From assembly GCA_019637915.1 (NCBI GenBank), contig JAHBUV010000001.1, positions 434,001 through 498,000 of the forward strand: a DNA stretch of 64,000 nt. The letters run 5' to 3'. Source of the stretch: Pseudobdellovibrionaceae bacterium (GTDB taxonomy: Bacteria > Bdellovibrionota > Bdellovibrionia > Bdellovibrionales > Bdellovibrionaceae). Each line of letters opens with the position of its first letter. Position 1 is the stretch's first letter. Shown here one piece after another: positions 19,747 to 64,000 of this stretch. The position numbers were made by a program, and so were the translations under genes. Below the pieces are notes generated by a model, which saw nothing but the letters and a program-made list of their open reading frames with translations, did no database searches and was not told the DNA's origin.

Positions 19747-19915
19747 AAACCACCAATCTCGACATTGCATCGTAAAAGGAAGCCATGGCACGGGCTAGTT
19801 ACTCGTAGGGAGCGGTATGGGCCGATCCCTACGTTTTTACATCAGTTTTTGCTTGCCTATAACCGAATTTGGAATTAAACAAGGGTGGTTATTTTCATTA
19901 GTCAAGGAGACAGCT

Positions 19916-22792
19916 ATGTCAAAGCGCCCCCAATATCGATGTCAAGTTTGCGAAGAGCCCGCCACGGTTAAGGTTGCGGCGGATGTGAACGGTCGTAGGA
20001 CTGTTACACCGCTCTGTGATCGACATTATCGCCAACTTTTACTGCAACAGAAACGTTCAATTTCTCCGATGGAGTCTTTGTTCGGTCCGCGCTCTGGTTT
20101 TTTTGAAAACTTTTGGGGAAGTGATTTTTTTAATTCAGGCTTTGGTTTCCCGATGGATGCTTCTGATGAAGCATCAGAAGAGAATGATACTGGCGTTCAC
20201 TTGGAAAGCACTGAAGCAAGCGCCGAATCCCCGACCCACCGACGCGGAAGTGGGATTGCTGGCCGCTTAAGCGAGCAAGCAGAAACACAACTTCAAGAAG
20301 CCGCAAAACGTGCAGCGGAATACGGCCGGTCAGATGTCGATACCGAGCACGTTTTGTTGGCACTTACTGAAAGTGACGTGGTTAAAACAATACTGAGTCG
20401 ATTCAAAATCAATATCGAAGATTTAGGGCGCCAAATTGAATCCGAAGCAAAGCGCGGAGAAAAGCCCTTTGAAGGTGAAATGGGCGTTGCCCCACGAGTA
20501 AAAGATGCCCTAGGCCGGGCCTTTGTGGCTTCCAACGAGATGGGGCATTCCTATGTTGGTCCCGAGCACCTTTTGGTTGGCTTAGCAGAAGAAGGCGAAG
20601 GTCTTGCCGCTAATGTGCTTCGCCGCTATGGAATTACGCCGCAGTCACTCAGGCAACAGGTTATCAAAGTGGTGGGTAAAGGGGCTGAGAGCGGTCGTGC
20701 GGACTCCCCAACAAATACTCCAGAGCTGGATAAGTACTCGCGCGACCTCACGAAGCTTGCCCGTGATGGAAAACTTGATCCTGTTATTGGACGAGCTCAA
20801 GAAATTGAAACAACCATCGAAATTCTTGCAAGACGCAAGAAGAACAATCCGGTCCTAATCGGCGAGCCGGGTGTTGGAAAAACAGCCATTGTCGAAGGGC
20901 TCGCTCAGCGCATGGTCTCTGGAGAAGTGCCGGAGATTTTACGCGACAAGCGGCTTGTTGAACTCAATATCAATTCTCTTGTCGCTGGTGCGAAGTATCG
21001 AGGGGAATTTGAAGAGCGAGTTCAAAAAGTGCTTAAAGAGGTTTCAAGCAACCATGGTGAACTAATATTATTTATCGACGAAGTTCATACTATAGTCGGT
21101 GCCGGACAAGGCGGCGGCGAAGGCGGGCTTGATATTGCCAACGTGTTTAAGCCGATGATGGCGCGCGGAGAACTTAATTTAATTGGCGCCACAACCCTAA
21201 ATGAATATCAAAAATACATTGAAAAAGACGCGGCACTTGAGCGGCGTTTTCAGCCTGTAATGGTCGCAGAGCCAACCGTATCTCAGGCAATCATGATTCT
21301 ACGAGGACTCAGGGACACCTTTGAGGCTCATCACAAGGTTAGCATTTCGGACGACGCAATTCTTGCCGCAGCCGAACTCTCAAAACGCTACATCACATCC
21401 AGGTTCTTGCCCGATAAGGCGATCGACCTGTTGGATCAGGCGGCGGCTCGAGTCAAACTCTCAACGACCTCTCGTCCGGTTGCGGTTCAAGAGCTGGATG
21501 CAGAACTTCACCAATTGCGCAGAGAGCAGGATTCCTTAGCTGCCGGCAAGAAGTTTGATAAAGCTTCCGAATTGGGCAAACGAATTGAAGCCAAGGAATC
21601 TGAACTTAAAAAGCTTGTTGAAAACTGGGAAAGAGAACGCGCATCAGGAAGCGCCGAAGTTAAATCAGAGCATGTCGCGCAAATTGTGTCGCGCCTGACA
21701 GGCATTCCTGTTACTGAGCTGACGACTGAAGAAAAAGAAAAACTTTTGCATCTTGAACAAAAGCTACATAAGCGCGTGGTTGGCCAGGATGAGGCTGTAC
21801 GGGCGGTTGCCGATTCCGTTCGCTTGGCAAGAGCAGGCTTACGTGAGGGCGGAAAACCCGTTGCGACTTTCTTATTTTTAGGTCCGACGGGAGTGGGAAA
21901 AACTGAGCTTGCGAAAGCTTTAGCTGAAGCTATCTATGGTGACGAAGACGCGCTTTTGCGTATTGATATGTCCGAGTACGGTGAGCGTCATACTGTTGCA
22001 AGACTAGTCGGAGCTCCTCCTGGATACGTGGGTTATGATGAAGGCGGTCAACTTACGGAAAAAGTAAGGCGTCGCCCATATAGCGTCATACTATTAGACG
22101 AAATCGAAAAAGCTCATGCCGATGTGTACAATGTTTTGCTTCAAGTATTCGACGACGGTCGGTTGACCGATGGTAAAGGGCGTGTGGTTGATTTTTCCAA
22201 TACAATCATTATTGCGACCTCGAACCTGGGCTCGGACATTATTCAGCGACGTCTAAGCGCACGTAGTGTGGTCGGAGAAGAATACGAGAAGACAAAGCTA
22301 GAGCTTTTGGATATTCTTCGCGGACACTTTAGGCCTGAATTTTTGAATCGTATCGATGAGATCATCGTCTTTCACGCTTTGGGTAAAGAGGAAATTCGCA
22401 GTATTGTTCACTTGCAACTCGCCCGGGTCGCTCAAAATGCGTCTAGCCAGGGCGTCGCACTCACGTTTGATGACTCTTTGATTAATCATCTTGCTGAGGA
22501 GGGTTACAAACCTGAATTCGGCGCGCGAGAACTTAAACGCCAGATTCGAACTGAGCTTGAAACCGCTTTGGCGAAAGAAATGCTTGGCGGAGGCGTCGCG
22601 CAGGGAGATTCAATCAGAGTTTGCTGGGATGCTTCAGCTGATCGAGTGACCTTCGAACGAATCCAGGCCCCTAAACCTAAAGATGAGACCAAGGCGGCGG
22701 GCTCAGCAGCAAAAAAAGAGACTCGCGATAAACCAGTTCCTCAAAAAGAAAAAGGTAAAATGAAGGGTCAAGATCGTAGTAAATCGGATTAG
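19916..22792 (+). CDS. clpK: ClpK/ClpG-type heat-resistance disaggregase (958 aa)
   Basis: A Clp/Hsp100 AAA+ protein. The start at 19916 (MSKRPQYR) follows AAGGAGACAGCT; the upstream in-frame extension is not supported. The N-terminal zinc site (C9, C12, C34, H37) is followed by two Clp-N repeats, AAA-1 with Walker A GEPGVGKT near 316, a short middle domain, AAA-2 with GPTGVGKT near 655, and a charged C-terminal tail. Zinc-headed ClpG/ClpK proteins are the hallmark of transmissible stress-tolerance loci and rescue aggregated protein after lethal heat. More GC-rich than the surrounding element. Confidence 0.93.
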
Positions 22793-22800
22793 CCGAGTGC

Positions 22801-23208
22801 ATGAGCCGCTTTCTTCCCTTTGAGATCTGGCAATGGTTTGTCGCGATCATTTCTATCTTGGTAGGAATTCTTACGGCGGGACATGCCGTTATATTCAAGC
22901 GTGATCCGCGTTCAGCGATTCTTTGGCTACAGACCTTTGTTCTTTTGCCGATAGTTGGTTCAGCATTATATTTAGTTTTGGGTATAAATCGCTATCAGCG
23001 ACGCGCGAGGAGTTGGCGAAGTATCGCGCCGGTTGAAGATAGTTCGTTCCTAAGTATGGTTTCTGTGCCCCCAGCTCTTAAGAGCATGAAGTATCGACTT
23101 AGCTCACGGGACCGGAAGTCACAGGCTTTAAACTTCGCGGTTTCGAACATTTTAATGAATACATTGGAGTCGAGATCGAATAAGCTCTGTTTATGGGTTC
23201 TGAATTAG
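22801..23208 (+). pseudogene. Cardiolipin synthase N-terminal remnant
   Basis: Two membrane helices and LVGILTAGHAVIFKRDPRSA, then ILWLQTFVLLPIVGSALYLV, match the PLDc_N region of cardiolipin synthases (~480 aa in full). The two HKD catalytic domains are absent; the frame ends after 135 residues, overlapping the next gene by 16 nt. A deletion fused this remnant to the downstream gene. Confidence 0.7.
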
Positions 23209-23723
23209 GGATAGATTGGGAGACGCTCAGCTATATCGTGACCGTGATCGGTTTTCCGTTTGCTATTTTCGTCTTCATGCTCGAGCAGCGAAAAGAGCGG
23301 GAAAACGAGGAGGCCGGCATCTATCAAAAACTCTCAGACGACTACGCGGAATTTTCGAAGCTCCTACTTGAAAACGCCGATCTGCGACTGATGTCAGAAG
23401 TTCTGTCCGATGGCGATTTAACACCTGAACAAAAAGAGCGAAAGAAGGTCATCTTCGATATTCTGATTTCCATTTTTGAGCGTGCTTTCATTCTTGTGCA
23501 TCAAAAGAACATGAACCGTCGAACAAGACGTCTCTGGTCGACGTGGGAAGACTTCATTGAGAGCTGGTGCCGAAGAGAGGACTTCAGGGAATCACTCCCT
23601 GAACTTCTTCTGGGTGAAGATCCAGAGTTTGGAGCCTACATTCGGGATACGGCAGCGAAAGCGAATCGGCAGTTTTCGGAAAAGCCAAAAGGCGCAAGTG
23701 GCTCGGCACCTAGCGCCTTCTAG
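23193..23723 (+). CDS. Single-span membrane protein (176 aa)
   Basis: One transmembrane helix (about residues 13-32, YIVTVIGFPFAIFVFMLEQR) is followed by a helical cytoplasmic domain with conserved-looking LISIFERAFIL and LWSTWEDFIESW. No family recognised. It overlaps the end of the cardiolipin synthase remnant; the true start may have been lost in the rearrangement. Part of the island by base composition. Confidence 0.6.
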   Translation: MGSELGIDWETLSYIVTVIGFPFAIFVFMLEQRKERENEEAGIYQKLSDDYAEFSKLLLENADLRLMSEVLSDGDLTPEQKERKKVIFDILISIFERAFILVHQKNMNRRTRRLWSTWEDFIESWCRREDFRESLPELLLGEDPEFGAYIRDTAAKANRQFSEKPKGASGSAPSAF

Positions 23724-23733
23724 CATGCCCAAC

Positions 23734-24048
23734 TTATCGCGCCGAAACTCTTTGAGCGTCGACCGCGCCCTCGTAACAGACGAACTGATTTCCTGCCCCA
23801 AGCGGCAACAGGCCGACCCTCTCGTACCCAGGCTCCAGAAACTTATTCAGCGTTTCGCGTAAGCTCACGGTCGGCGTTCCTAAACATTGAAGACGTTCTT
23901 GATAAATTTCTTTTTTCGGCGGAGGTGAAAGCACTGATTGTTCAAACGGCTCTTGTTGTCGGTCCGCTAGAGCCATCGACTCTGGCGCAGGGAAATGGCC
24001 GAATGAAAATGCCAAAGCAACCGCAGCGATAAGACCCGATTTTTTCAT
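23734..24048 (-). CDS. Small secreted protein (104 aa)
   Basis: The start at 24048 (MKKSGLIAAVALAFSFG) follows GGAGGTCAACA. Signal peptide of about 25 residues. The mature part ends with FLEPGYERVGLLPLGAGNQF, a short fold seen in small secreted proteins. Two cysteines could form a disulfide. Antisense to its island neighbours. Function unknown. Confidence 0.65.
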   Translation of the reverse strand: MKKSGLIAAVALAFSFGHFPAPESMALADRQQEPFEQSVLSPPPKKEIYQERLQCLGTPTVSLRETLNKFLEPGYERVGLLPLGAGNQFVCYEGAVDAQRVSAR

Positions 24049-24253
24049 TGTTGACCTCCTTGCTAATTCCAAAAGGAAATTTGTCTTTCGCATTTCATCC
24101 GTCAAGGTGACGCTCTTGACAAGAAACTGACCCGTTTTCAAATTTGAAAGTGTGGCGTTGGGCGCACGCGGGCTTGAGAATTTTCCGGTCGCTAACAGCT
24201 TCTACGTGCGACGCCAATGCACTTCGATAGACGCCCAAAAAGGAGGTAAGGTT

Positions 24254-24397
24254 ATGGCGACCCTAGCTTGGAACTTAATTCGACAGACTGGGTCTTCAAA
24301 TCAATCAGTCAATCAAAGACGATTCTCAGACGCCATCGACCGTTTGATCGAACGTCATCCTGAAGCGGGGCGTTGTCCCTCGATCAATTTCAACTGA
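24254..24397 (+). CDS. Short ORF with strong ribosome-binding site, probably interrupted (47 aa)
   Basis: AAAAAGGAGGTAAGGTT precedes the ATG. The readable part (MATLAWNLIRQTGSSNQSVN, then a helix) runs into the palindrome at 24371-24410 and stops. The frame differs from the ftsH remnant that follows. Probably the broken start of a former gene. Confidence 0.4.
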   Translation: MATLAWNLIRQTGSSNQSVNQRRFSDAIDRLIERHPEAGRCPSINFN

Positions 24398-24410
24398 TCG
24401 AGGGACAACG
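24371..24410. repeat. Perfect 16-bp inverted repeat at ftsH scar
   Basis: CGTTGTCCCTCGATCA, loop ATTTCAAC, TGATCGAGGGACAACG. The right arm encodes the FtsH-like LIEGQR; the left arm is its exact inverted copy. This looks like a snap-back or template-switch scar made when ftsH was deleted. Confidence 0.65.
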
Positions 24411-24549
24411 CCGAAATTTTGACCGAGCTTATCGAATCTTGGAGCGCAACAAAGTGATTCTAGATCAATGCGCCAAGGATTTACTTATCCGAGAGACTCT
24501 TGAAGAAGTTGACATAAGGAAACTTTCTGCTAGTTTGGCTATGCTATGA
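24394..24549 (+). pseudogene. ftsH: ftsH C-terminal remnant
   Basis: The frame gives EGQRRNFDRAYRILERNKVI, then a segment ending RETLEEVDIRKL, which matches the extreme C-terminal helical region of the FtsH protease. The AAA and HExxH domains are missing. An FtsH homologue is a regular member of transmissible stress-tolerance loci, between clpK and yfdX, exactly this position. Confidence 0.65.
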
Positions 24550-24615
24550 ATAAACAATAAAAGCTTAACTTAAGGCACGCAAAATGCATGTCGGAAAAAC
24601 CAATGGAGGTTACTA

Positions 24616-25515
24616 ATGAAAATCAAAAGAATGCTGTTATCGTTTGCGGCGCTTGGAATTCTTACAAATTCCATGTTCGCCGAAGGCTCATCGCTCCCTA
24701 CGAACCCGCAATCGCGTTCATCTACGGCCGAGGGGGTGCAATCCCAAGTCGAATCTAAACAAGCTGAAAAGGCTACCCAGCTTCGCAAAAAACTTTTAGC
24801 AGAAGCGGCCTTAGCGATAGATGACACAAAGAAAGCTCTAGCCTTTCTTGATAAGAAAAATTCGAAGGAGGCACTTGCTGCATTGGAGCGAGTCACAGGT
24901 AAGCTAGAGCTGATTATCTCGCGTGAACCGGGCCTGGCGCTGGCTCCTATTGACATGAATGTTGCGGTCCAGGATTTGTTGGCTGATCCGGATACTGTAA
25001 AGGTCATCCTAAAAGAAGCGAGAGATCTGCTTGGCGACGGCGAAGTTCAGAAGGCTCGTCCACTATTGGCAAACCTCTCTAGCGAGATGGTGTTCAGCAC
25101 GATCAACATCCCGCTTGCCACCTACCCACAGGCGATAAAAGCTGTGGCCCGACTGATTGACGAAAACATGCTCAACGAGGCAAAGACAGCACTTGAAGCT
25201 GCGCTAAGCACGCTAGTTGTGACTGACGTGATTATCCCGCTACCGGTGCTTAGGGCAGAACTCCTTCTTAAAGAAGCAGAGAAATTGGCTGAGAAAAGCA
25301 ACCGCTCTGAAAAGGAAAATGAGTCCCTATCGAATCAACTGTCTGAGGCCCGTAAGCAAGTTCGCTTGGCTGAGGTGCTGGGATACGGTAAAAAGAAAAC
25401 TTATAAGCCAATCTATGAACAAATCGATCAAATTGAAAAGAAGTCTCGCGGCGGGAAAAGTGGTCGCGGCTGGTTTGATAATATCAAAAAGAAAGTTTCT
25501 GAGTTGTTTGGCTAA
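24616..25515 (+). CDS. yfdX: YfdX family periplasmic protein (299 aa)
   Basis: A signal peptide (about residues 1-22) is followed by the YfdX domain: KLLAEAALAIDDTKKALAFL, PIDMNVAVQDLLADPDT and a conserved ALSTLVVTDVIIPLPVLRAE. YfdX proteins are soluble, probably periplasmic, chaperone-like proteins of the stress-tolerance locus and of acid or heat resistance clusters. ATG after GGAGG. The basic glycine-rich tail (about 275-299) is longer than usual. Confidence 0.85.
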   Translation: MKIKRMLLSFAALGILTNSMFAEGSSLPTNPQSRSSTAEGVQSQVESKQAEKATQLRKKLLAEAALAIDDTKKALAFLDKKNSKEALAALERVTGKLELIISREPGLALAPIDMNVAVQDLLADPDTVKVILKEARDLLGDGEVQKARPLLANLSSEMVFSTINIPLATYPQAIKAVARLIDENMLNEAKTALEAALSTLVVTDVIIPLPVLRAELLLKEAEKLAEKSNRSEKENESLSNQLSEARKQVRLAEVLGYGKKKTYKPIYEQIDQIEKKSRGGKSGRGWFDNIKKKVSELFG

Positions 25516-25560
25516 ACTCGACGCGTTTATATTTATAATCGCAGGAAGGGAGAAAAGAGC

Positions 25561-26175
25561 ATGACTACACGAACTCAGGAAGCTTGGGGGCATGTCGTCT
25601 GCTCGCTTTCTCCAAACTGGTGGTTATTTGTTCTTCGCGGAATTTTGGCTCTGATTTTTTCGGTTCTTGCATTCTTGTTGCCGGTGCAAGCATTGTTTGC
25701 ATTTTCATTAGTCTTCGGAGCTTTTTCATTGGTCGACGGTGCCTTTGGTTTAGTTTCAGCGTTTAGGCGAATGCGCAAAGGCTCTCGTTGGGGATGGCTT
25801 GCCTTCAGTGGGATTTTAGGAATTTTGGTGGGTGTGGTTGTGCTTCTGTCGCCTTTTGTTGCGACAATTGTGCTGGCCACATTTTTGTGGGCCAATATTG
25901 CAATTTGGTCGGCGTTTTCCGGCGTGCTTGAGATTGCCGCCGCAATTCGGTTGCGTCGAGAGATCAAGGGCGAGTTTTGGTTGGTCTTAAATGGAATTCT
26001 GTCGATCATTTTTGCCACGGTTATTCTGTGGCTTCTTTTGACTCGCCCAATAGAAACCGTCATTGCCCTCGGCTGGTTGATGGGAGTCTACGCATTATTA
26101 TCAGGATTTGTTTTAATCTTTTTGGGGTTAAAGTTGCGAAAAGCAGAAAGGGCCCTCTCATTACAACATGTGTAA
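25561..26175 (+). CDS. hdeD: HdeD family membrane protein (204 aa)
   Basis: Six hydrophobic segments in pairs (DUF308/HdeD layout), starting with NWWLFVLRGILALIFSVLAF and later VLNGILSIIFATVIL. HdeD proteins are inner-membrane proteins linked to acid resistance and are standard in the stress-tolerance locus. ATG follows GGAAGGGAG. 45 nt after yfdX; same operon. Confidence 0.85.
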   Translation: MTTRTQEAWGHVVCSLSPNWWLFVLRGILALIFSVLAFLLPVQALFAFSLVFGAFSLVDGAFGLVSAFRRMRKGSRWGWLAFSGILGILVGVVVLLSPFVATIVLATFLWANIAIWSAFSGVLEIAAAIRLRREIKGEFWLVLNGILSIIFATVILWLLLTRPIETVIALGWLMGVYALLSGFVLIFLGLKLRKAERALSLQHV

Positions 26176-26196
26176 TGGCAGGGATGAGGAGGCACC

Positions 26197-26661
26197 TTGT
26201 CGCTTAGAAAGCATTTTTTGCAGCCAAACATCATGAAATTTTACGATCGTTTTGAACAAACTATTGCGATTACCCTCACGGGTATTATCTCGGTGATTAT
26301 CTTAGTATCTGTAGTGCAATTGATTCGAAATGTTTTCTTCTCATTGATTCTTGGCGCTCTGGACCCTCTCGAACACAATAGCTTTCAGGCGATTTTTGGA
26401 ATGATCATGACCGTCCTAATCGCTATGGAATTTAAGCATTCAATTATTCAAGTCGCCCTTCGTAGGGACAGTTTTGTGCAGGTCAAGACCGTGGTGCTCA
26501 TTGGGTTGATTGCCATAGCCCGAAAATTTGTGATCGTTGATGTAAATGAGACCGAACCGGCAAAACTTGCTGCCTTAGCTGGAATGGCGATTTCCCTAGG
26601 CGTAACCTATTGGTTATTGCGAGAGCGCGAAGACCGAATGGATGAGAGTGGTAAATCCTGA
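26197..26661 (+). CDS. psiE: PsiE-like membrane protein (154 aa)
   Basis: TTG start after GAGGAGGCACC. Four transmembrane segments, with the PsiE-typical second-half block IAMEFKHSIIQVALRRDSF and KTVVLIGLIAIARKFVIVD. PsiE-type proteins close the stress-tolerance locus in many Proteobacteria. Last intact island gene. Confidence 0.8.
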   Translation: MSLRKHFLQPNIMKFYDRFEQTIAITLTGIISVIILVSVVQLIRNVFFSLILGALDPLEHNSFQAIFGMIMTVLIAMEFKHSIIQVALRRDSFVQVKTVVLIGLIAIARKFVIVDVNETEPAKLAALAGMAISLGVTYWLLREREDRMDESGKS

Positions 26662-29245: not shown

Positions 29246-30043
29246 TTAATATTTCTTTTTGGGTTTTCCGCTTAATAAATCATCCACTTCTTCTTGAGTA
29301 AGTGTTGGTTGAGGTGGTTGGGGTGCCGTATTGGTTCTATCGGGAACGTGAACTCCAAGAGAGCGGAGATACTTCTCACTTTCTCTAATAAAGAAATGCT
29401 CTAAGTTAAGTAAGTTCGTTACCCCTTCTGGAGGGTTCTTACAGAATTCAGTGATGAGATAGCCCCAGAGAATTGGAGCCAATGCTTTTTCTTTGAAGGC
29501 TTGGCATTTCAAGTAGTGAGCATGGAGTTGAACTGAACTCATCGTGCGTAGTTCAGTAATTGGGATAACTACCTTTTGAACTGGTACTGTGAGAATGCTT
29601 CCCCACTTTATAGTCTTAACTTCTACGGAAGTGCTTTTTCTATTAGGGTCAATAGCGATAACGAAGCTTTGCCCTTTTTCTGAATCCAATTGGTCAGTGG
29701 AGTAATCAGGAATAGTAAATAGCGGCGGGACGTTAAAGTCGTGCGGGTAGATGGAGTAAATCTCTATGTGAGATGGCTCTACTTTAAAATAATATCCACT
29801 TGTTCCCTTTGCACCTAGCTCTTTAAAGTGACGGTTTAAAATACTACAAGCCGAACGGTGATAGTTACTGTTCTTAGATAAGATTTTTTCATTCTTGGGC
29901 GGAATCAAATCGATAGGGGTCAAATAGTGAGGCCCAGGATTATATTCCCAACCCATTTTCTCGGCTTCTTTGAGGTAACGACCCCAGGTCTTTAATAAGT
30001 TGTTAAGCTCCCTATCTGTGGAGGTTTTTTGTTCTTTCTTCAT
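29246..30043 (-). CDS. Hypothetical protein (265 aa)
   Basis: Soluble alpha/beta protein with a proline-rich linker and a short C-terminal tail (TQEEVDDLLSGKPKKKY). The tail EEVDDLLSG resembles the short binding motif EIDALLSG found at the N-terminus of flagellar switch protein FliM/FliN-type proteins, but a short match like this can be chance. No catalytic motif. Leader has a degenerate GAGGTATC box. Confidence 0.55.
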   Translation of the reverse strand: MKKEQKTSTDRELNNLLKTWGRYLKEAEKMGWEYNPGPHYLTPIDLIPPKNEKILSKNSNYHRSACSILNRHFKELGAKGTSGYYFKVEPSHIEIYSIYPHDFNVPPLFTIPDYSTDQLDSEKGQSFVIAIDPNRKSTSVEVKTIKWGSILTVPVQKVVIPITELRTMSSVQLHAHYLKCQAFKEKALAPILWGYLITEFCKNPPEGVTNLLNLEHFFIRESEKYLRSLGVHVPDRTNTAPQPPQPTLTQEEVDDLLSGKPKKKY

Positions 30044-30118: not shown

Positions 30119-30637
30119 TTATTTTGGGCGGTTGGAACTGATTTTTTTCATAATTTCAGTCAAAGAGATGGGGATTCCGTTTAAGGCTTCCACGCACACA
30201 TTAATATATCGCTCGTCTAATGAGCCATCAGGTAGGGTTATAGAGCGTTCATGAACATGGCCGTGGATATTGAGTTTCCCCCGTAGTTCATTCGGGTGTA
30301 TTGGTGCGTGAGTTAACCAAAATCCGTGCGTCTTTAAAATCCCATAGACGTTATTGAAGTATTTTAGGTAAGCCTGAGTAGAGAGTTTATCATGGTTTCC
30401 GCGAATCAAATATTTATGTCCTTTAAGTTTACCAATTAATTCCAGAGCCTCTTGGGAGAATACAACATCTCCCAGGACATAGACTTTATCTTGGTCGGTC
30501 ACGGTATTATTCCAATTTTGAATCAACCATTCGTTATGGTCTGTAATGCTCGGCCCTTTACGACACGGGGAGAACTCTAAGATTCGCTTATGGTCCAAGT
30601 GTAAGTCAGATATGAAATAGGTTTCGTGTTTATTCAT
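30119..30637 (-). CDS. Calcineurin-like metallophosphoesterase (172 aa)
   Basis: Metal motifs in order: FISDLHLDHKR, VYVLGDVVF, IRGNHDK, WLTHAP and NIHGHVHE. Start at 30637 (MNKHETYF) overlaps the stop of the upstream membrane gene, showing coupling. Such small phage and plasmid enzymes hydrolyse phosphodiesters or nucleotides; the substrate is unknown. A second, different phosphoesterase is at 46227-46829. Confidence 0.85.
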   Translation of the reverse strand: MNKHETYFISDLHLDHKRILEFSPCRKGPSITDHNEWLIQNWNNTVTDQDKVYVLGDVVFSQEALELIGKLKGHKYLIRGNHDKLSTQAYLKYFNNVYGILKTHGFWLTHAPIHPNELRGKLNIHGHVHERSITLPDGSLDERYINVCVEALNGIPISLTEIMKKISSNRPK

Positions 30638-30917
30638 TTTTCTCACACGCAACCGGTGGTTTTACTGATGCTTCTTTAGGAGCCTGATTTTGGTTCACTA
30701 CAAATTGAATAAAGAAAACCAAGAAGCCCAACCAGACGTAGCGGTAAAAGTTCTTCCAGGCACGTTCATAGAACGATTTATAAAATGATATCTCTTCATC
30801 TTTATTCGCCCACTTAACCAGAAGACCACCGCAGGTAAAAGGTTTTGGGTTGGCGTGAAAGTAACTGTCCAATAAGAATAGAACCAAGATTAAAACTGAG
30901 AACAGAAAAGCTAGCAT
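30630..30917 (-). CDS. Two-helix membrane protein (95 aa)
   Basis: Hydrophobic segments at about residues 1-17 and 55-72, the second ending near NQNQAPKEA. Coupled to the phosphoesterase downstream by an overlapping ATGAATAA. Confidence 0.65.
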   Translation of the reverse strand: MLAFLFSVLILVLFLLDSYFHANPKPFTCGGLLVKWANKDEEISFYKSFYERAWKNFYRYVWLGFLVFFIQFVVNQNQAPKEASVKPPVACEKNE

Positions 30918-30979: not shown

Positions 30980-31474
30980 TTAGCGGAGACGTTTTAATAG
31001 TTGAACTTTGGGAGTGTTGGGTAAGAACTTATAGGAGCGGTCTAACATATCGTTCATCATCGCTAAATCTTTGTAGTATTCAAACACACATAGAGTTTTA
31101 CAACGAATATCAATAGCTTTGTTCTTTAGGTCCACCGGGAAATCTTTTTGATTAGGGAACTCGGATTCAAATTGTTTTACTTCCAAGTCAATTTTCTTGA
31201 TGGTGGGCTCAAGGCTCTTCATCAAAGTAAAGTGGTGGAGCATGATATTGAAACAATCGGTTTTAAGGTCTGGTCCGCTACCAGGGTTTCTTAAGATAAA
31301 ACTAACGGCGACGAAATTATTGGATTGGTTATTGAAGGAGTCTAAATGTTGATTGAACTCTAAAGGTTTTAAATCCGCAACTAAGTGATCCAGTGCGACC
31401 TTTAAAGACGGTTCAACATTCATTCCGTTGCCTAAGTAATCTAAAAATGTATTGGTTAAGTTATTATCGTCCAT
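30980..31474 (-). CDS. Hypothetical protein (164 aa)
   Basis: All-helical soluble protein; no recognised family. It follows the MotA-FliG gene by 46 nt. A perfect inverted repeat (CTTACTTCTT/AAGAAGTAAG, about 31475-31500) directly precedes its ATG and may control translation. Confidence 0.6.
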   Translation of the reverse strand: MDDNNLTNTFLDYLGNGMNVEPSLKVALDHLVADLKPLEFNQHLDSFNNQSNNFVAVSFILRNPGSGPDLKTDCFNIMLHHFTLMKSLEPTIKKIDLEVKQFESEFPNQKDFPVDLKNKAIDIRCKTLCVFEYYKDLAMMNDMLDRSYKFLPNTPKVQLLKRLR

Positions 31475-31520: not shown

Positions 31521-32399
31521 TTAAACTAATTGGTCATCGTCTCGTCTACGGGCAATTAGGATTTTACCTTCCGCCTCTAAACGCTTCACAACTTCCAGGA
31601 TTTCATTTTGAGCGGCATCTACATCGCTAATCCGTGCGGGTCCCATATTGGCTAAATCTTCTTGGAGTAATTCAGATGCTCTTGAGGAGATATTCTTAAA
31701 AAACTTAAGTCTGATGGAAACGGGAAGAGTCTTCATTGCCAAAAGTAGTTTATCATTAGGGATTTCTTTGAGGGCGGTTTGAATGCCTTTATCATCAATC
31801 AAATCTAAATCGTTAATGGTGAATAATCTTTCAATCGCGTCCTCATTCATAGATGACGCTACTGGCGCGAATGATTGTTTTGATCTATCAATTTTTAATT
31901 TTACTATCTCTAGCTTCAGGTCACTAATTTCCTTAAGTAATGGAGATAGAGTTTCCATTTGCTCATGCGTGATTGATTTACTGCTAGTTTGATTCACTGA
32001 AGATTTGCTTCGGTTTCTAGGATACCCTTTAGTAGCCGTATCCATTTCATCAAAACTAGGACGCACTGAATATGGAGTCGTTTTTCGTCCGGCTTCAATA
32101 CAAATTAATGGTGGGGCTCCAGTTTGGAACATTACTAAAGCGACATGAGTAGCTTTTTGAGCTACTGAGAAAGGTTCTTCATCACTATCTTGTTCTAAGA
32201 TATAATCTTGAAGTTCTTCGGCGGAGATATCGGTACTCATCGTAACTTTGAATGAATCGCAAATTGCTTCCACCAATCGTTTGTTCCTCATTACTGAGGG
32301 GTAGGCTTTAAAAATTTCGGATGTATCTGGAGATTCAATGTGTCTTTCAACTGCTTGTGGCCCATCTTTACGGTAGAGTTGGAAGATTTGGAAAAGCAT
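31521..32399 (-). pseudogene. MotA-FliG chimera, 3' part (292 aa) cut off by IS21
   Basis: Residues 1-75 match the MotA cytoplasmic domain (VERHIESPDTSEIFKAYPS; E. coli MotA has LERDIENPRESEIFASYPR). The two membrane helices that follow in MotA are absent, and GAPPLICIEAGRKTTPYSVR matches the MotA end (APPIAVEFGRK). After a linker, residues 200-290 match the FliG C-terminal torque domain (LLQEDLANMGPARISDVD; E. coli LRDDLANRGPVRLSQVE). Charged torque positions are largely kept (K, K, E/D, R). The 5' part is at 34912-35051. Confidence 0.8.
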
Positions 32400-32470
32400 T
32401 GACCGATTTCACAGAACGGAGCCGGGCAATTTCTAGGATCGGAGCCACCGGAGCGTCAGCGACGTGATGA

Positions 32471-33247
32471 TTATTTGAGCAACTTTCCTTCGACAAGCTT
32501 TTTCCCGGCCGGGAGCACCGATTGCAATTTTTCCCGGTAACTTCCGCCGGTCAACTGGATCCGCTGGCTGGGGTGTTCGAGGCGGTTGACGATGGCCTCG
32601 CTAATCACCGGATCTTCAAAGAGCTTCGACCAACCTCGCGGGTCAACCTGGCTCGTGACGATCACAGAACCTTTGCGATGTCGGTCCTCGAGTAAGTCGA
32701 CCAGCACTGTTGCTTCTTCGTGCGTGTAACCGCGAAGTCCGAAGTCATCGAGTATCAGTACTCGCTTTTGTCCGAGACGTTTCACGTATGCCAGATATTT
32801 TCCGGAAGCTCGTGCCGCCATCACTTCTTCGAACAAGAAGTTCACCGGCATAAACAAGACCGATATATTCTCGGCGCACAGTCGACGGCCGATCGCCACC
32901 GCCAAGTGTGTTTTGCCCTGTCCCGTTTTGCCCAGCACCAAAAGGTTTTCGTTCCCCTCGACGAAGCTCGCCACGGCGAGCTCGCGCAATTTTGCTTTAG
33001 TGATGCCGCGCTCGAAGGTTTGGTCCCAGTCTTCAAGCTCGGAGCCAGAGCGGAACTTAGCTCGTGTCGTGAGCGCCTTTCCGACACGCTCCTTGCGGTT
33101 CAGCACCTCGTCTTCGAGAACGAGTCGCAAGAACTCGAGGTGGTTTAAATTTTGGCCGGCCGCCTCTGCGGCCCGGCGCTCGAAGTTGGCATGCACTCCG
33201 AACAGCCGCAAGCGGTGACTTAAGTTTTTCATCTGATCCTGGATCAT
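32471..33247 (-). CDS. istB: IS21 helper ATPase IstB (258 aa)
   Basis: Walker A LGKTGQGKTHLAVAIGRRL and Walker B VLILDDFG in a DnaC-like AAA+ fold, as expected for IstB, which promotes strand transfer by the IstA transposase. Start overlaps the istA stop by 4 nt. Normal length; appears intact. Confidence 0.95.
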   Translation of the reverse strand: MIQDQMKNLSHRLRLFGVHANFERRAAEAAGQNLNHLEFLRLVLEDEVLNRKERVGKALTTRAKFRSGSELEDWDQTFERGITKAKLRELAVASFVEGNENLLVLGKTGQGKTHLAVAIGRRLCAENISVLFMPVNFLFEEVMAARASGKYLAYVKRLGQKRVLILDDFGLRGYTHEEATVLVDLLEDRHRKGSVIVTSQVDPRGWSKLFEDPVISEAIVNRLEHPSQRIQLTGGSYREKLQSVLPAGKKLVEGKLLK

Positions 33248-34734
33248 TTCTCCTCCTTTGGAGATGGGTTGTTGTGTAAATACATTGAGTTTTCTTCACG
33301 CATGGGTGCCGAGCGAACGGCGCTCGGGCGATTGCCATTTTTGTCGAAGTATTCAGCCGTGGACTGCACATAGGCGAACTGCAGCTTACGGTAAGTCATC
33401 GCCATCTTCGCCGCGTGCTCTAAAGCAGCGCGCGTAATGCGGCCCGTTTGCTCAAGCCGCAATATTCCCTGCACGCGGCGCAGATACTTGAGCGGGTAAT
33501 TGCCGCCCAACAGTTCTTCGACGAGCTTGATGGTTTCCGGGCCGATCTGTTCCGCAGCCCTTTTTGCCAGCTGCACTGAGAACTGAGTCAGCGCCACCTT
33601 CTCCTCGGGGTAATGCTTGGGATCGGTCGAGTAGATTTCTTTTCCAAGAAGCCGCGCGTGCGCTGCGAGCGGATTTAGATCTTGATCAAATACTTCAATC
33701 AGTTTGGCTGTAACTTTCACGCGAACTTCGCGCCCTACGTACTTGAACGGACAAGAGTAAAACTTCTTTAAGACTTGCACGTGGCAGTCGGCGTGTACTT
33801 TGGCGAGTCTCCACTCGGCCACTTCCCAGTTCGACGGCGGACACGGCTTTAAAAGGCCTTGCTCGCCAGCAAAGCGGTCGCGGCGACTCACCCCCCAGTC
33901 CTTCATCACGGCTGTGTTCAACCGCTCGAGATATTCCCTAAACACGCGATTGAGCTCATTCAACGAGAAGAACGTGCGATCACGCACCTCTTGATAAAAC
34001 TGCTTTTGTATGACGCCGATGCCGGATTCATTGCCGCCCTTATCTCTTGGCCTAAACGGTCTTGCTGGGATCACCGCAAAGCCCCAGTGATTGGCGAAGT
34101 CCACAAACGCTGGGTTCACTTCCGGATCGTACCAGTGGGCCTGATTAACTGCCGCTTTCTGGTTGTCGACAGTCACGTATGGAGTGACACCGCCAAAATA
34201 TCTGAACGCATTCTCCATCGACCGAATTAAGTCACTTCTTCGCTCAGTCATTGTGAACTCGCCGAAGGTGTACGAACTCATCGCCATCACTCCACAACAG
34301 ATCGACGTCGTCTGCACTTCGCCAGTCGAAGCATTCACGATGTCGATTCCTTCCGCATAATCAAAAAAGCATTTCTCGCCAGGCCGATGATCAAGCCGCA
34401 TCGTCACTTTCGGAACTAAAGGATATTTTTTGTGGAACTGGCGCCAGAACTGAACATAGCTGATCACCTCACTGGCATGCTCGCGGGCGAGAATATTTAC
34501 CGGCACACCGCGGGCTACTTCGAGCCGAACCTTTTCCCAATCGATGGTCTTTGCCCACGATGGCATCGATGCACCAGGCTCTGATACACTATTTCTGTTT
34601 ATAATCTTACGGATTGTATTCCGGCCGACCTTTAAAACCTTGGCGATCTTTCTCGCCGTCATGCCTTGGGCATGAAGTTCCAGAATTTGTTTTTGCATTG
34701 CGACTGACACCTTTGCCACCGCTCCCATAACCAC
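33244..34734 (-). CDS. istA: IS21 transposase IstA (496 aa)
   Basis: N-terminal helix-turn-helix (MTARKIAKVLKVGRNTIRKI), then an RNase-H-type DDE core: FFDYAEG (first Asp), VTVDNQKAAV (second Asp) and DKGGNESGIGVIQK (Glu), then a C-terminal domain. Full length for the family and without frame breaks, so probably active. Confidence 0.95.
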   Translation of the reverse strand: MVMGAVAKVSVAMQKQILELHAQGMTARKIAKVLKVGRNTIRKIINRNSVSEPGASMPSWAKTIDWEKVRLEVARGVPVNILAREHASEVISYVQFWRQFHKKYPLVPKVTMRLDHRPGEKCFFDYAEGIDIVNASTGEVQTTSICCGVMAMSSYTFGEFTMTERRSDLIRSMENAFRYFGGVTPYVTVDNQKAAVNQAHWYDPEVNPAFVDFANHWGFAVIPARPFRPRDKGGNESGIGVIQKQFYQEVRDRTFFSLNELNRVFREYLERLNTAVMKDWGVSRRDRFAGEQGLLKPCPPSNWEVAEWRLAKVHADCHVQVLKKFYSCPFKYVGREVRVKVTAKLIEVFDQDLNPLAAHARLLGKEIYSTDPKHYPEEKVALTQFSVQLAKRAAEQIGPETIKLVEELLGGNYPLKYLRRVQGILRLEQTGRITRAALEHAAKMAMTYRKLQFAYVQSTAEYFDKNGNRPSAVRSAPMREENSMYLHNNPSPKEEK

Positions 34735-34911
34735 CTCCTTGGTGGATCAATGGCAGCATTGGCCCTTTAGGGTTGTCGCTGATGCTCAAAGTCAACTTCG
34801 CTCAAATCCAATATAAGTGGATCCGTTCCATGAAATTGGGTGGCTCCGATCTATGAAATCGGGTGGATCCGATCAATGAAATCGCCTGGCTCCGATCCGT
34901 GAAATCGGTCA

Positions 34912-35051
34912 AGCATTTGAAAGAGTTCAACTAGCTCCCATTTTTGGCGTCTTTTACGTTTATTTAGAATACCTACTTCGGCTAGGCCGTCGTGCACTCC
35001 CTCAATGAATTCTTTGAGACTTTCAATTAGTTGGTTAATAAGATTTTTCAT
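34912..35051 (-). pseudogene. MotA-FliG chimera, 5' part (46 aa)
   Basis: ATG at 35051 after TGGAGGACTT. The frame reads to KWELVELFQM, then enters IS21. Removing the IS and one AGCAT copy joins this frame exactly to the 3' part (FQM-LFQIFQLYRKDG), restoring a protein of about 337 residues. KWELVELFQMLFQIFQ is the helix that precedes the MotA cytoplasmic domain. Confidence 0.85.
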
Positions 35052-37132: not shown

Positions 37133-37345
37133 ATGAGTAAAGATAATAGTAATCCTAAAAACTTAGAAAAAGTAGAAGTTGACTTGAAGAGACCAAATCA
37201 ACCGGGGGATTCTCTTGCGCCAATAAAATCTTGGAAGGATTGTTACGACCTAATTTACTTGGGCTTTTATCGTTTGTTCTATAATTCAATTCCAGAAGAT
37301 AAACGGGAGTTAACTAAGGAAGAAGTTGATGATCGTCTCAGCTAA
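37133..37345 (+). CDS. Small hypothetical protein (70 aa)
   Basis: Acidic and soluble with a helical C-terminus. The next gene starts inside its last codons in another frame. Confidence 0.55.
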   Translation: MSKDNSNPKNLEKVEVDLKRPNQPGDSLAPIKSWKDCYDLIYLGFYRLFYNSIPEDKRELTKEEVDDRLS

Positions 37346-39099: not shown

Positions 39100-39771
39100 C
39101 TAATTCAGTTGAAGAATCTGGTGTAGGTTCTCGGGACCTAAATCTTTGAAGAACTGTTTTTTATGAAAAAGGCTAATTGATCCAGTCTCTTCGCTGATGA
39201 CAATAATTTTCGCATCACAAACTTCACTTAATCCCAGTCCTGCCCGGTGACGAGTGCCGTAGTAGGCTAACTCTTCGCTATTAGCTAACGGTAAGATAAC
39301 TCTTGCTTGATGAACTTTGTCACCAGTGATGATTACAGCTCCGTCGTGGAGTGGAGAATAATCGTTAAAAAGAGCCAGTAATAATGATGTAGAAAGATTG
39401 GCGTCTAAAGTAATACCACTATTGGTTTCTGGAATATGGTCGTGTTGTTTGAGAATGATAATCGCGCCGGTTTTATTCTCGGATAAAATCTTGCAAGTCT
39501 CTGAGATGATTTCAGCGGAGTGTTTGACAGAGGATTTTGAGACCAAGAAAAGTCTTTGGGAGATTGACTCTAAAAACCAACGCGAATTTTTAGGAAACAG
39601 AATTACACTCAATAAGAGATTTACGACAAAGTAGATGGCTTGGGAGTGAAGGACTAACGGTAAGGTCAAGATACTTAGGACAAAGAGAGATTTACTCCAA
39701 ACGCGGTTACCTGACAGAGACAAGCTCAGCCACAAAACGATTAGAACGATAGGTAAGTATAAAGTGTCCAC
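39100..39771 (-). CDS. cdaA: CdaA-type diadenylate cyclase (223 aa)
   Basis: Two or three N-terminal membrane segments (residues 4-60) precede a DAC domain with its two hallmark motifs: LHDGAVII (DGA at 143-145) and GTRHRAGLGLSE (RHR at 174-176). These bind two ATP and make cyclic di-AMP at the membrane. It is shorter than typical CdaA (~270 aa) but complete in the catalytic core. A second-messenger synthase is unusual on a mobile element. No partner CdaR or GlmM lies nearby. Confidence 0.88.
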   Translation of the reverse strand: MDTLYLPIVLIVLWLSLSLSGNRVWSKSLFVLSILTLPLVLHSQAIYFVVNLLLSVILFPKNSRWFLESISQRLFLVSKSSVKHSAEIISETCKILSENKTGAIIILKQHDHIPETNSGITLDANLSTSLLLALFNDYSPLHDGAVIITGDKVHQARVILPLANSEELAYYGTRHRAGLGLSEVCDAKIIVISEETGSISLFHKKQFFKDLGPENLHQILQLN

Positions 39772-47136: not shown

Positions 47137-47544
47137 ATGCGACCAACTAAAACCGGACACGGGAAACATTTTTGTCAAAAAGAGCATTGTAAAGGTGGAT
47201 GTGGGAAGGACGTTTTAAAAGAAGCAATCCACCAAGCATTTCATCAGAAAGTAGATAGTTTCATTTTGAGACTTACTGATAGTTTCAAAGAAGGAGACGT
47301 AATCCTCACGCGAACTGATGATTTAATAAACTCTGTTTTTTCAATCTTGGACCGAAGTGAATTGGCTAAAGAAACTGATGGGAAAGTTTCAGAACAGATT
47401 GATTCTTGTGAAGTTGAAATCGCCATTCTAAAATTTGATAGTATTAAAACCCTCCTAATTGAAGCCAGTGTTTTAGTTAAAGAACAAGGCTTATCTCACC
47501 CTCAAGCTCTCTGGAAGGCCTCTCGGATATCTGTTAGTGCGTGA
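47137..47544 (+). CDS. Cys/His-knuckle protein (135 aa)
   Basis: The N-terminus KTGHGKHFCQKEHCKGGCGK resembles that of the gene at 63554 (KTGHGYHTCGAEDCKGKKCG): a shared His/Cys-rich knuckle that probably binds zinc. The rest is helical and unrelated. Role unknown. Confidence 0.6.
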   Translation: MRPTKTGHGKHFCQKEHCKGGCGKDVLKEAIHQAFHQKVDSFILRLTDSFKEGDVILTRTDDLINSVFSILDRSELAKETDGKVSEQIDSCEVEIAILKFDSIKTLLIEASVLVKEQGLSHPQALWKASRISVSA

Positions 47545-63553: not shown

Positions 63554-64000
63554 ATGGGCAATAACTTTAAAGAAACCAAAACTGGACACGGCTACCACAC
63601 TTGTGGAGCTGAAGATTGTAAAGGCAAAAAATGTGGCGGTGATGGTAACGCTAACGCAATCGGGAAGAAGCAACGCAAATCCAAACCGTTTCCACTAACA
63701 CCAGATGGCCTAACTATCTTAAATGAACTTAAACCTGTAGTTTTACAGCTTCAAGGCAACGAAACTGTTAACGAACCAGATGCGGATAATTCAAAGAACC
63801 AAGTTCTTATCTATCTTAAACTGAACGATGAACTTAACTCAGCTATCCAATCTAAAAACGTAGATGGTATTAAAGAAGTTTTCCGAAAAGACCACTTAAT
63901 GGCCGCTCAAGTGGCAAGTTCCGATTTACTAACCGAAAAGGACATCAATCAATTACGCAATGAGGGAATGCGTATGTCAGAAGCTCTGTTAAATCCAAAT
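63554..64000 (+). CDS. Cys/His-knuckle protein (partial, runs off window)
   Basis: ATG after AGGAGAACCTT. N-terminus KTGHGYHTCGAEDCKGKKCG is the same His/Cys knuckle as in the 135-aa protein at 47137, followed by a helical region. At least 149 residues; the end lies outside the window. Function unknown. Confidence 0.7.
   Translation, partial: MGNNFKETKTGHGYHTCGAEDCKGKKCGGDGNANAIGKKQRKSKPFPLTPDGLTILNELKPVVLQLQGNETVNEPDADNSKNQVLIYLKLNDELNSAIQSKNVDGIKEVFRKDHLMAAQVASSDLLTEKDINQLRNEGMRMSEALLNPN

Follow-up and report, generated by a model that had tools for sequence, protein, structure and literature searches.

A split gene joining MotA and FliG sequences

The window examined here, by which we mean the whole stretch of 64,000 nucleotides (positions 434,001 to 498,000 of contig JAHBUV010000001.1, assembly GCA_019637915.1) from a Pseudobdellovibrionaceae bacterium, contains a gene of 337 codons in which the torque-generating interface of the flagellar protein MotA is followed by a linker and by the torque domain of FliG, with no membrane segments. 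The gene, whose product we call the chimera, is split by an insertion sequence (IS) of the IS21 family (Table 1), as shown by the presence of both IstA and IstB, of inverted ends (TGACCGATTTCA at 32400 and TGAAATCGGTCA at 34911) and of a short target duplication, the 5-bp AGCAT. A search of the genome found one full copy of this IS. With the IS removed, the empty site is a single frame of 1014 nt and 337 aa without internal stop which, together with the AGCAT duplication, bears out the proposal of an earlier note, made from the DNA letters alone, that a protein of about 337 residues would be restored. Because IS21 cuts the gene near its 5' end, at most a shortened form of the chimera is made in this genome, and since the gene is broken its function is lost or reduced here.

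The FliG part of the chimera is recognised by Pfam, which places FliG_C at residues 185-282 of the 292-residue open reading frame (ORF) downstream of the IS (E=2.8e-29), as well as by a PDB search with the same ORF, which matched FliG chains (best E=1.8e-18). This part spans ~107 residues and is 59% identical to the FliG of the host; the earlier note had thus named the domain correctly, but its length, given as the last 90 residues, was too short. FliG_C alone was found, FliG_N and FliG_M being absent from the Pfam results for the chimera. In the MotA part, residues 1-69 of the ORF are 53% identical (E=6.7e-21), and residues 86-129 are 43% identical (E=6e-7), to the MotA of the same genome; when the N-terminal piece is added, identity is 54% over 78 residues and 50% over 38. 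Hydropathy predicts four membrane segments in host MotA and none in the chimera. When the chimera is aligned with MotA of E. coli and with 23 distinct native MotA sequences encoded at Bdellovibrionales loci, it retains the stretch that follows the second transmembrane segment (TM2) and the C-terminal tail, with its GAPP...RPSF motif, and lacks TM1-2 and the TM3-TM4 block, the latter being cleanly missing between DSDEEP and GAPPLICIEAGRK. That the first part would be a MotA cytoplasmic domain deprived of all four membrane helices, with the segment of helices 3-4 excised just after DSDEEP, had been suggested before and agrees with these results. The Pfam model MotA_ExbB did not match the chimera at E<=1. 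The likely reason is that most of this model corresponds to the lost membrane block, which its match to host MotA spans; PilZ gave no match at E<=1 either.

The residues through which stator and rotor meet are largely kept. R90 and E98 of MotA (E. coli numbering, by alignment), invariant in 23 of the 23 native MotA rows, are present in the chimera, and the FliG charges K264, R281, D288, D289 and R297 are found as K, R, E, D and R. The columns of MotA P173 and P222 are absent, having gone with the membrane block. We take K264 and R297 to be torque charges, and the two prolines to act in the channel block. R90/D288-D289 and E98/R281 are the stator-rotor contacts described in PMC12505986, which also uses the term cytoplasmic torque-generating interface; PMC11673145 names R90 and E98 in MotA as well as D288 and D289 in FliG, where residue 281 is printed as D. 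The sequence, the kept interface residues and a confident model of the FliG half all speak for the view, also expressed in the earlier note, that both sides of the torque interface stand on one soluble chain.

In the AlphaFold2 model made with alignment A1 (62 rows), the FliG domain (residues 201-280) has predicted local distance difference test (pLDDT) values of ~93-96 and MotA residues 1-50 of ~80-92, at a predicted template modelling score (pTM) of 0.42; in the model from A3, an alignment of 24 rows, residues 81-110, which form the MotA tail, reach ~78-81, at a pTM of 0.40. In A1 the MotA part is correctly aligned over its first ~53 residues only, so that we rely on the A1 model for these residues and for FliG_C alone. 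In another alignment, A2, fragments of MotA were wrongly placed against FliG, and it was left aside. Foldseek matched the A1 model to 15 rows of FliG structures at E<=0.001, among them 1lkv and 1qc7 (E 3e-6 to 2e-4), and to the MotAB-bound FliG 8ucs at E=4e-3. A long helix in the linker (residues 145-175), which could form a coiled coil, is predicted in both models. The A3 profile matches solved MotA and PomA chains, but tells little about the chimera itself, most of its rows being native MotA.

Table 1. Positions of the chimera gene, its insertion, neighbouring genes and island motor genes. Plain numbers are window positions, those with C1 are contig positions; C1:521836-524273 equals L080:3836-6273.
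Feature	Position	Strand	Remarks
Main chimera piece	31521..32399	-	292-aa ORF; MotA torque-generating interface at ORF residues 1-~124, then linker; FliG_C torque domain at 186-292
Chimera 5' piece	34912..35051	-	ATG at 35051; residues before the IS; one AGCAT copy; ORF 34851-35051 runs into the IS end
IS21-family insertion, splitting the chimera gene	32400..34911	-	Inverted ends, AGCAT duplication, IstB
IS transposase, IstA type	33244..34734	-	rve E=5.1e-7; Mu-transpos_C_2 E=5.2e-15
IS helper ATPase IstB	32471..33247	-	PF01695 E=3.6e-52
164-aa protein	30980..31474	-	46 bp downstream of the chimera; no Pfam match over cut-off
Calcineurin-like phosphoesterase	30119..30652	-	PF00149 E=5.7e-6; same minus-strand gene run
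265-aa protein	29246..30043	-	Fourth gene downstream of the chimera; C-terminus LTQEEVDDLLSG, like FliM-N or a CheZ tail, after a Pro-rich linker; no Pfam match over cut-off
Island FliG (N+M+C)	C1:501355-502371 (L079:3355-4371)		Beyond window end
Island FliM	C1:521836-522819		Beyond window end
Island FliN	C1:522821-523078		Beyond window end; keeps FliMN_C core
Island FliG M+C	C1:523080-524273		Beyond window end; FliG_N below cut-off; C-terminal extension of ~170 aa

The island and its other motor genes

The window sits in a block of ~112 kb with a GC content of 39%, inside a chromosome of 62% GC. A tyrosine integrase (E=7.1e-14) adjoins a tRNA-Leu at the border of the block, and a 24/27-base copy of the tRNA 3' end is found at the far border (C1:424278 and 536316). 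The integrase, the far-end repeat and the distinct composition identify the block as an integrative element inserted at a tRNA, referred to below as the island; an assembly artefact or contamination is unlikely, as the island lies within a contig of 3.26 Mb with host-like GC on both sides. The GC content at third codon positions is 0.32 for the chimera, and 0.38 on average over 139 island ORFs.

Beyond the end of the window, the island encodes two FliG proteins, a FliM and a FliN (Table 1). The island FliM is 56% identical to that of the host over 291 residues and keeps both the CheY-binding motif, LSQSEVDALL, and the GGGG loop. Identity to the FliG of the host is 45% for one and 50% for the other of the two island FliGs, and all these genes share the island base composition with the chimera. 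From such matches, the mobile element is predicted to carry a set of proteins of the cytoplasmic ring (C-ring) of the motor. An LpoB-like lipoprotein (Pfam 1.8e-26) and two lipoprotein-like genes are found directly upstream of the FliG with all three domains (L079:1318-3321). The motor genes of the host lie elsewhere, outside the island, with motA at C1:1316k, fliM at 1377k and fliG at 1427k, so that motA and fliG are ~110 kb apart. The chimera does not represent debris of a chromosomal mot/fli operon, because its gene sits on the island with FliG, FliM and FliN; degradation of such an operon, the alternative raised in the earlier note, is ruled out by these other motor genes as well as by the distance between host motA and fliG and by the island composition. 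A phage origin of the motor genes was set aside by judgement, the matches in phage collections looking bacterial: four unannotated Listeria records, MaAM05 (with bioD, murJ and fabI nearby) and an unverified faecal scaffold.

Genes on the island were called with a home-made hexamer script, and their borders are approximate. The Pfam batch comprised 84 island ORFs less a Clp ATPase and the two IS genes, that is, 81 ORFs, those three being scanned separately; two ORFs crossing locus borders and those of <60 aa stood outside it. Among the proteins encoded on the island are a DNA polymerase A of its own, FtsK-like translocases, SSB, a primase-like protein and a member of a phage DNA-transfer family. 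The Pfam scans, which covered part of the island ORFs, showed neither a relaxase nor genes for type IV secretion. Relatives of the FtsK-like gene occur in 2 of 368 genomes of the phylum, one being this genome and the other G193, from another class. The island primase had no match in G193, in a search for which an empty answer shows little, and no relative in viral contigs; matches in plasmids were partial and <60% identical (25 records), with none over 80% of the length.

Among the scanned neighbours of the chimera, no MotB/OmpA-type protein was found. One neighbour, the 265-aa protein, ends in APQPPQPTLTQEEVDDLLSGKPKKKY, a tail resembled by that of E. coli CheZ (SQDQVDDLLDSLGF). The N-terminus of FliM and the tail of CheZ both bind CheY. 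A strict motif, L[ST][QK][ASED]E[IV]D.L[LI], is found in two of the 139 island ORFs, encoding the 265-aa protein and FliM (0.0 expected after shuffling). Six-frame ORFs from other loci, 549,942 residues in all with the window excluded, contain the motif 8 times, always near the N-terminus of an ORF of 334-349 aa; these ORFs are the FliMs of the island, the host and E. coli, one annotated fliM, and four that look like FliM. The pattern was chosen after the tail had been seen, and the putative CheY-type tail is thus a lead and not a test. Searches of viral contigs and of plasmids returned no relative of the 265-aa protein. A weaker version of the motif (LTKEEVDDRLS) ends a 70-aa ORF at 37133-37345.

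Other observations concern the island as a whole. A protein with a DAC domain of DisA type (39100-39771; Pfam 3.9e-35) and a hydrophobic N-terminus is probably a cyclic di-AMP synthase. A block of higher GC (19817-26661) with the Clp ATPase, YfdX, DUF308 and PsiE looks nested in the island and has a make-up that we take to be that of transmissible stress or heat-tolerance loci. Three otherwise unlike proteins share a similar His/Cys-rich N-terminal motif (e.g. KTGHG.H.C...DCKG..CGG); they are encoded at 47137-47544, at C1:497554-498834 (starting at window position 63554) and at L079:7437-8189.

Relatives and the wider use of FliG_C

A search for intact homologues, also proposed in the earlier note, did not return any. 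When all rows at E<=1e-10 from the 66 genomes of the family are considered, this genome alone has a row that spans both halves, and no second MotA-FliG fusion was found among the matches listed for 140 genomes of the order (E<=1e-8) or for 368 genomes of the phylum (E<=1e-28, a threshold that would hide distant copies). Altogether 107 ORFs of at least 100 aa, drawn from 40 loci of a one-genome-per-species scan and from other loci, match the chimera, and only the window's own matches both halves. Among plasmids, 54 records match and none covers 80% of the chimera; 4 phage records match, in the FliG part only; and 16 pattern matches in viral contigs include no relative, the contig scans having used exact short peptides of the chimera, by which distant fusions would be missed. 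Among the papers listed in literature searches (many subscription papers are not covered), none describes, as far as titles and the first part of abstracts go, a fusion of this kind or a switch complex borne on an element, in line with the earlier note, which knew of no described protein with this design. We know of no described counterpart.

In trees of 75 FliG_C rows and 25 MotA rows, the latter drawn from Bdellovibrionota, the chimera and E. coli only, both parts of the chimera fall among Bdellovibrionales rows, on branches of 1.65 (FliG_C) and 1.87 (MotA) changes per column; forks are weak in both trees and the placement of such long rows is unsure.

FliG_C itself is widespread. A search of 88 genomes of the order gave a match in 79, and many of the matches listed lie outside FliG. 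Twenty selected loci with non-FliG proteins (L148-L167, one of them in this genome) encode forms of 142-147 aa (6 loci), 222-294 aa (8) and 542-598 aa (6); most of those of 222-294 aa end in a similar coil (...LEQIKKIA), and two of three scanned proteins of 542-598 aa combine FliG_M with FliG_C. G193 encodes two FliG_C proteins of 141 aa, one near response-regulator genes (among L094-L096), and a 368-aa protein that ends in FliG_C and has a weak PilZ match (E=0.0028, below the Pfam cut-off). These proteins have in common with the chimera a FliG_C outside a full FliG, but no MotA part is present in the 20 examined, and their torque domains are mostly more divergent. The chimera scores 1.8e-29 for FliG_C, among the best listed outside full-length FliG, most others listed being at 1e-14 or weaker; the score does not set it apart, however, because 1.1e-29 is reached by a free form of 146 aa in G090. 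To judge from sequence, the phylum tends to reuse the FliG torque domain and, FliG_C outside FliG being common in the order, the MotA-FliG fusion is an extreme case of this wider pattern.

Possible roles of the chimera

We favour, with about an even chance of being right, a role of the chimera as a soluble clutch or brake that acted in the cytoplasm on the flagellar motor of the host, and of which the present copy is broken. The effects that the earlier note gave as examples, surface attachment and a block to flagellum-dependent phages, found no support in the present results. The MotA half of the chimera would present R90 and E98 to the FliG torque helices of the rotor, and MotA in docked stators would meet the torque charges of its FliG half; attached to one of the two sides, or to both at once, the chimera would uncouple or bridge rotor and stator. 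Because it cannot move with the ion cycle, the bound protein would slow, stall or uncouple the motor, as a clutch or a backstop brake. The chimera shares with MotA the cytoplasmic interface and the tail, but is without membrane helices and ion path, has no MotB partner in view and is fused to FliG_C; it shares with FliG the C-terminal torque domain and its five conserved charges, but not FliG_N or FliG_M. Without these two domains, there is no known way for it to join FliF or FliM. Known regulators offer partial parallels. YcgR, a soluble protein, acts on MotA and FliG according to PMC10140304 and PMC12713396; the chimera is likewise soluble and would act at the same proteins, but differs from the PilZ brake and clutch proteins YcgR and MotI in having no PilZ domain and in being built from the motor's own contact parts. 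EpsE, the clutch of Bacillus subtilis, stops motility by acting on the rotor (PMC3000366), as the chimera might, but has a glycosyltransferase-like sequence unrelated to it. The parts of the chimera belong to known families; its function, if as proposed, would place it among the flagellar clutches and brakes, as a new variant.

Several observations weigh against this role. MotA normally shows its torque surface as a pentamer held in the membrane, which the chimera cannot form through membrane helices. Fold searches of the models returned no solved MotA for the first half, which for that reason rests on sequence, so that the structure prediction suggested in the earlier note recovered the FliG fold and not that of MotA, and the pTM of 0.40-0.42 does not fix the arrangement of the two halves. 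The chimera keeps 39 of the 57 columns that are invariant among native proteins in the MotA part (23 rows) and 10 of 13 in FliG_C (74 rows); left out one at a time, native rows keep on average 0.986 and 0.995 of such columns, respectively, which suggests a constraint weaker than, or other than, that of real motor parts. Some of the divergence may be older than the fusion, having accumulated while the MotA and FliG genes still worked separately in a lineage outside the sample. Moreover, the chimera is known as one copy only, and promoter scans, like those for terminators, were at chance level. In a simulation of neutral drift, however, a stop-free frame was left in only 1 of 400 runs at 0.1 changes per nucleotide. 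A modest conclusion is that the chimera remained a coding gene until the IS arrived, and that the constraint on it differed from the one acting on a MotA or FliG at work in a motor.

Its occurrence alongside other island motor genes suggests that the island manipulates swimming. Possibly, the chimera, its neighbour with the CheY-type tail and the island FliG, FliM and FliN would form a programme that takes over motor output. More tentatively, and with the likelihood tilted against it, we propose that the element carries a motor-takeover set, made up of the switch complex FliG/FliM/FliN, a two-faced soluble decoy and a CheY-binding tail protein, that throttles, stalls or re-biases the swimming of its predatory host.

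The same genes could instead provide an alternative rotor, in which the C-ring of the host is replaced by, or mixed with, island FliG, FliM and FliN, and the chimera adapts or gates the coupling of host stators to this rotor instead of stopping that of the host. The presence of an island FliG with N, M and C domains, of a FliM and a FliN that keep their conserved motifs and core, and of a shared base composition agrees with this scenario, but we consider it unlikely: the torque domain of the chimera is closer to host FliG than to the two island FliGs (36-37% identical), the motor genes stand at three separate places on the island, and neither FliF nor MotB is found among the island proteins scanned. 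It is also distinctly improbable that FliG_C and the MotA loop were reused without torque, as scaffold or adaptor modules of an unrelated complex; the non-FliG forms of FliG_C common in the order and the weakly PilZ-like FliG_C protein of G193 make such reuse conceivable, but the contact residues of both partners would not be expected to be kept. A by-product of recombination, kept for a time without function and now decaying, would account for the broken gene, the 18 of 57 invariant MotA columns lost, the lack of a relative and a divergence that could predate the fusion, but sits poorly with a 337-codon open frame, kept contact residues, clean domain borders flanking the lost membrane block and island-like composition, and we regard it as quite unlikely.

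If the role of the chimera as clutch or brake is correct, it would represent a natural, minimal and soluble probe of the stator-rotor contact, of the kind wanted in motor biophysics, and the takeover set, if real, would make the island the first element to control a flagellar motor through mimicry of its torque interface on both the stator and the rotor side. Mobile elements would then hold a direct mechanical handle on the swimming of their host, which a predator needs for finding prey. The chimera also raises the testable question of why so many other proteins of the Bdellovibrionota contain the torque domain of FliG.

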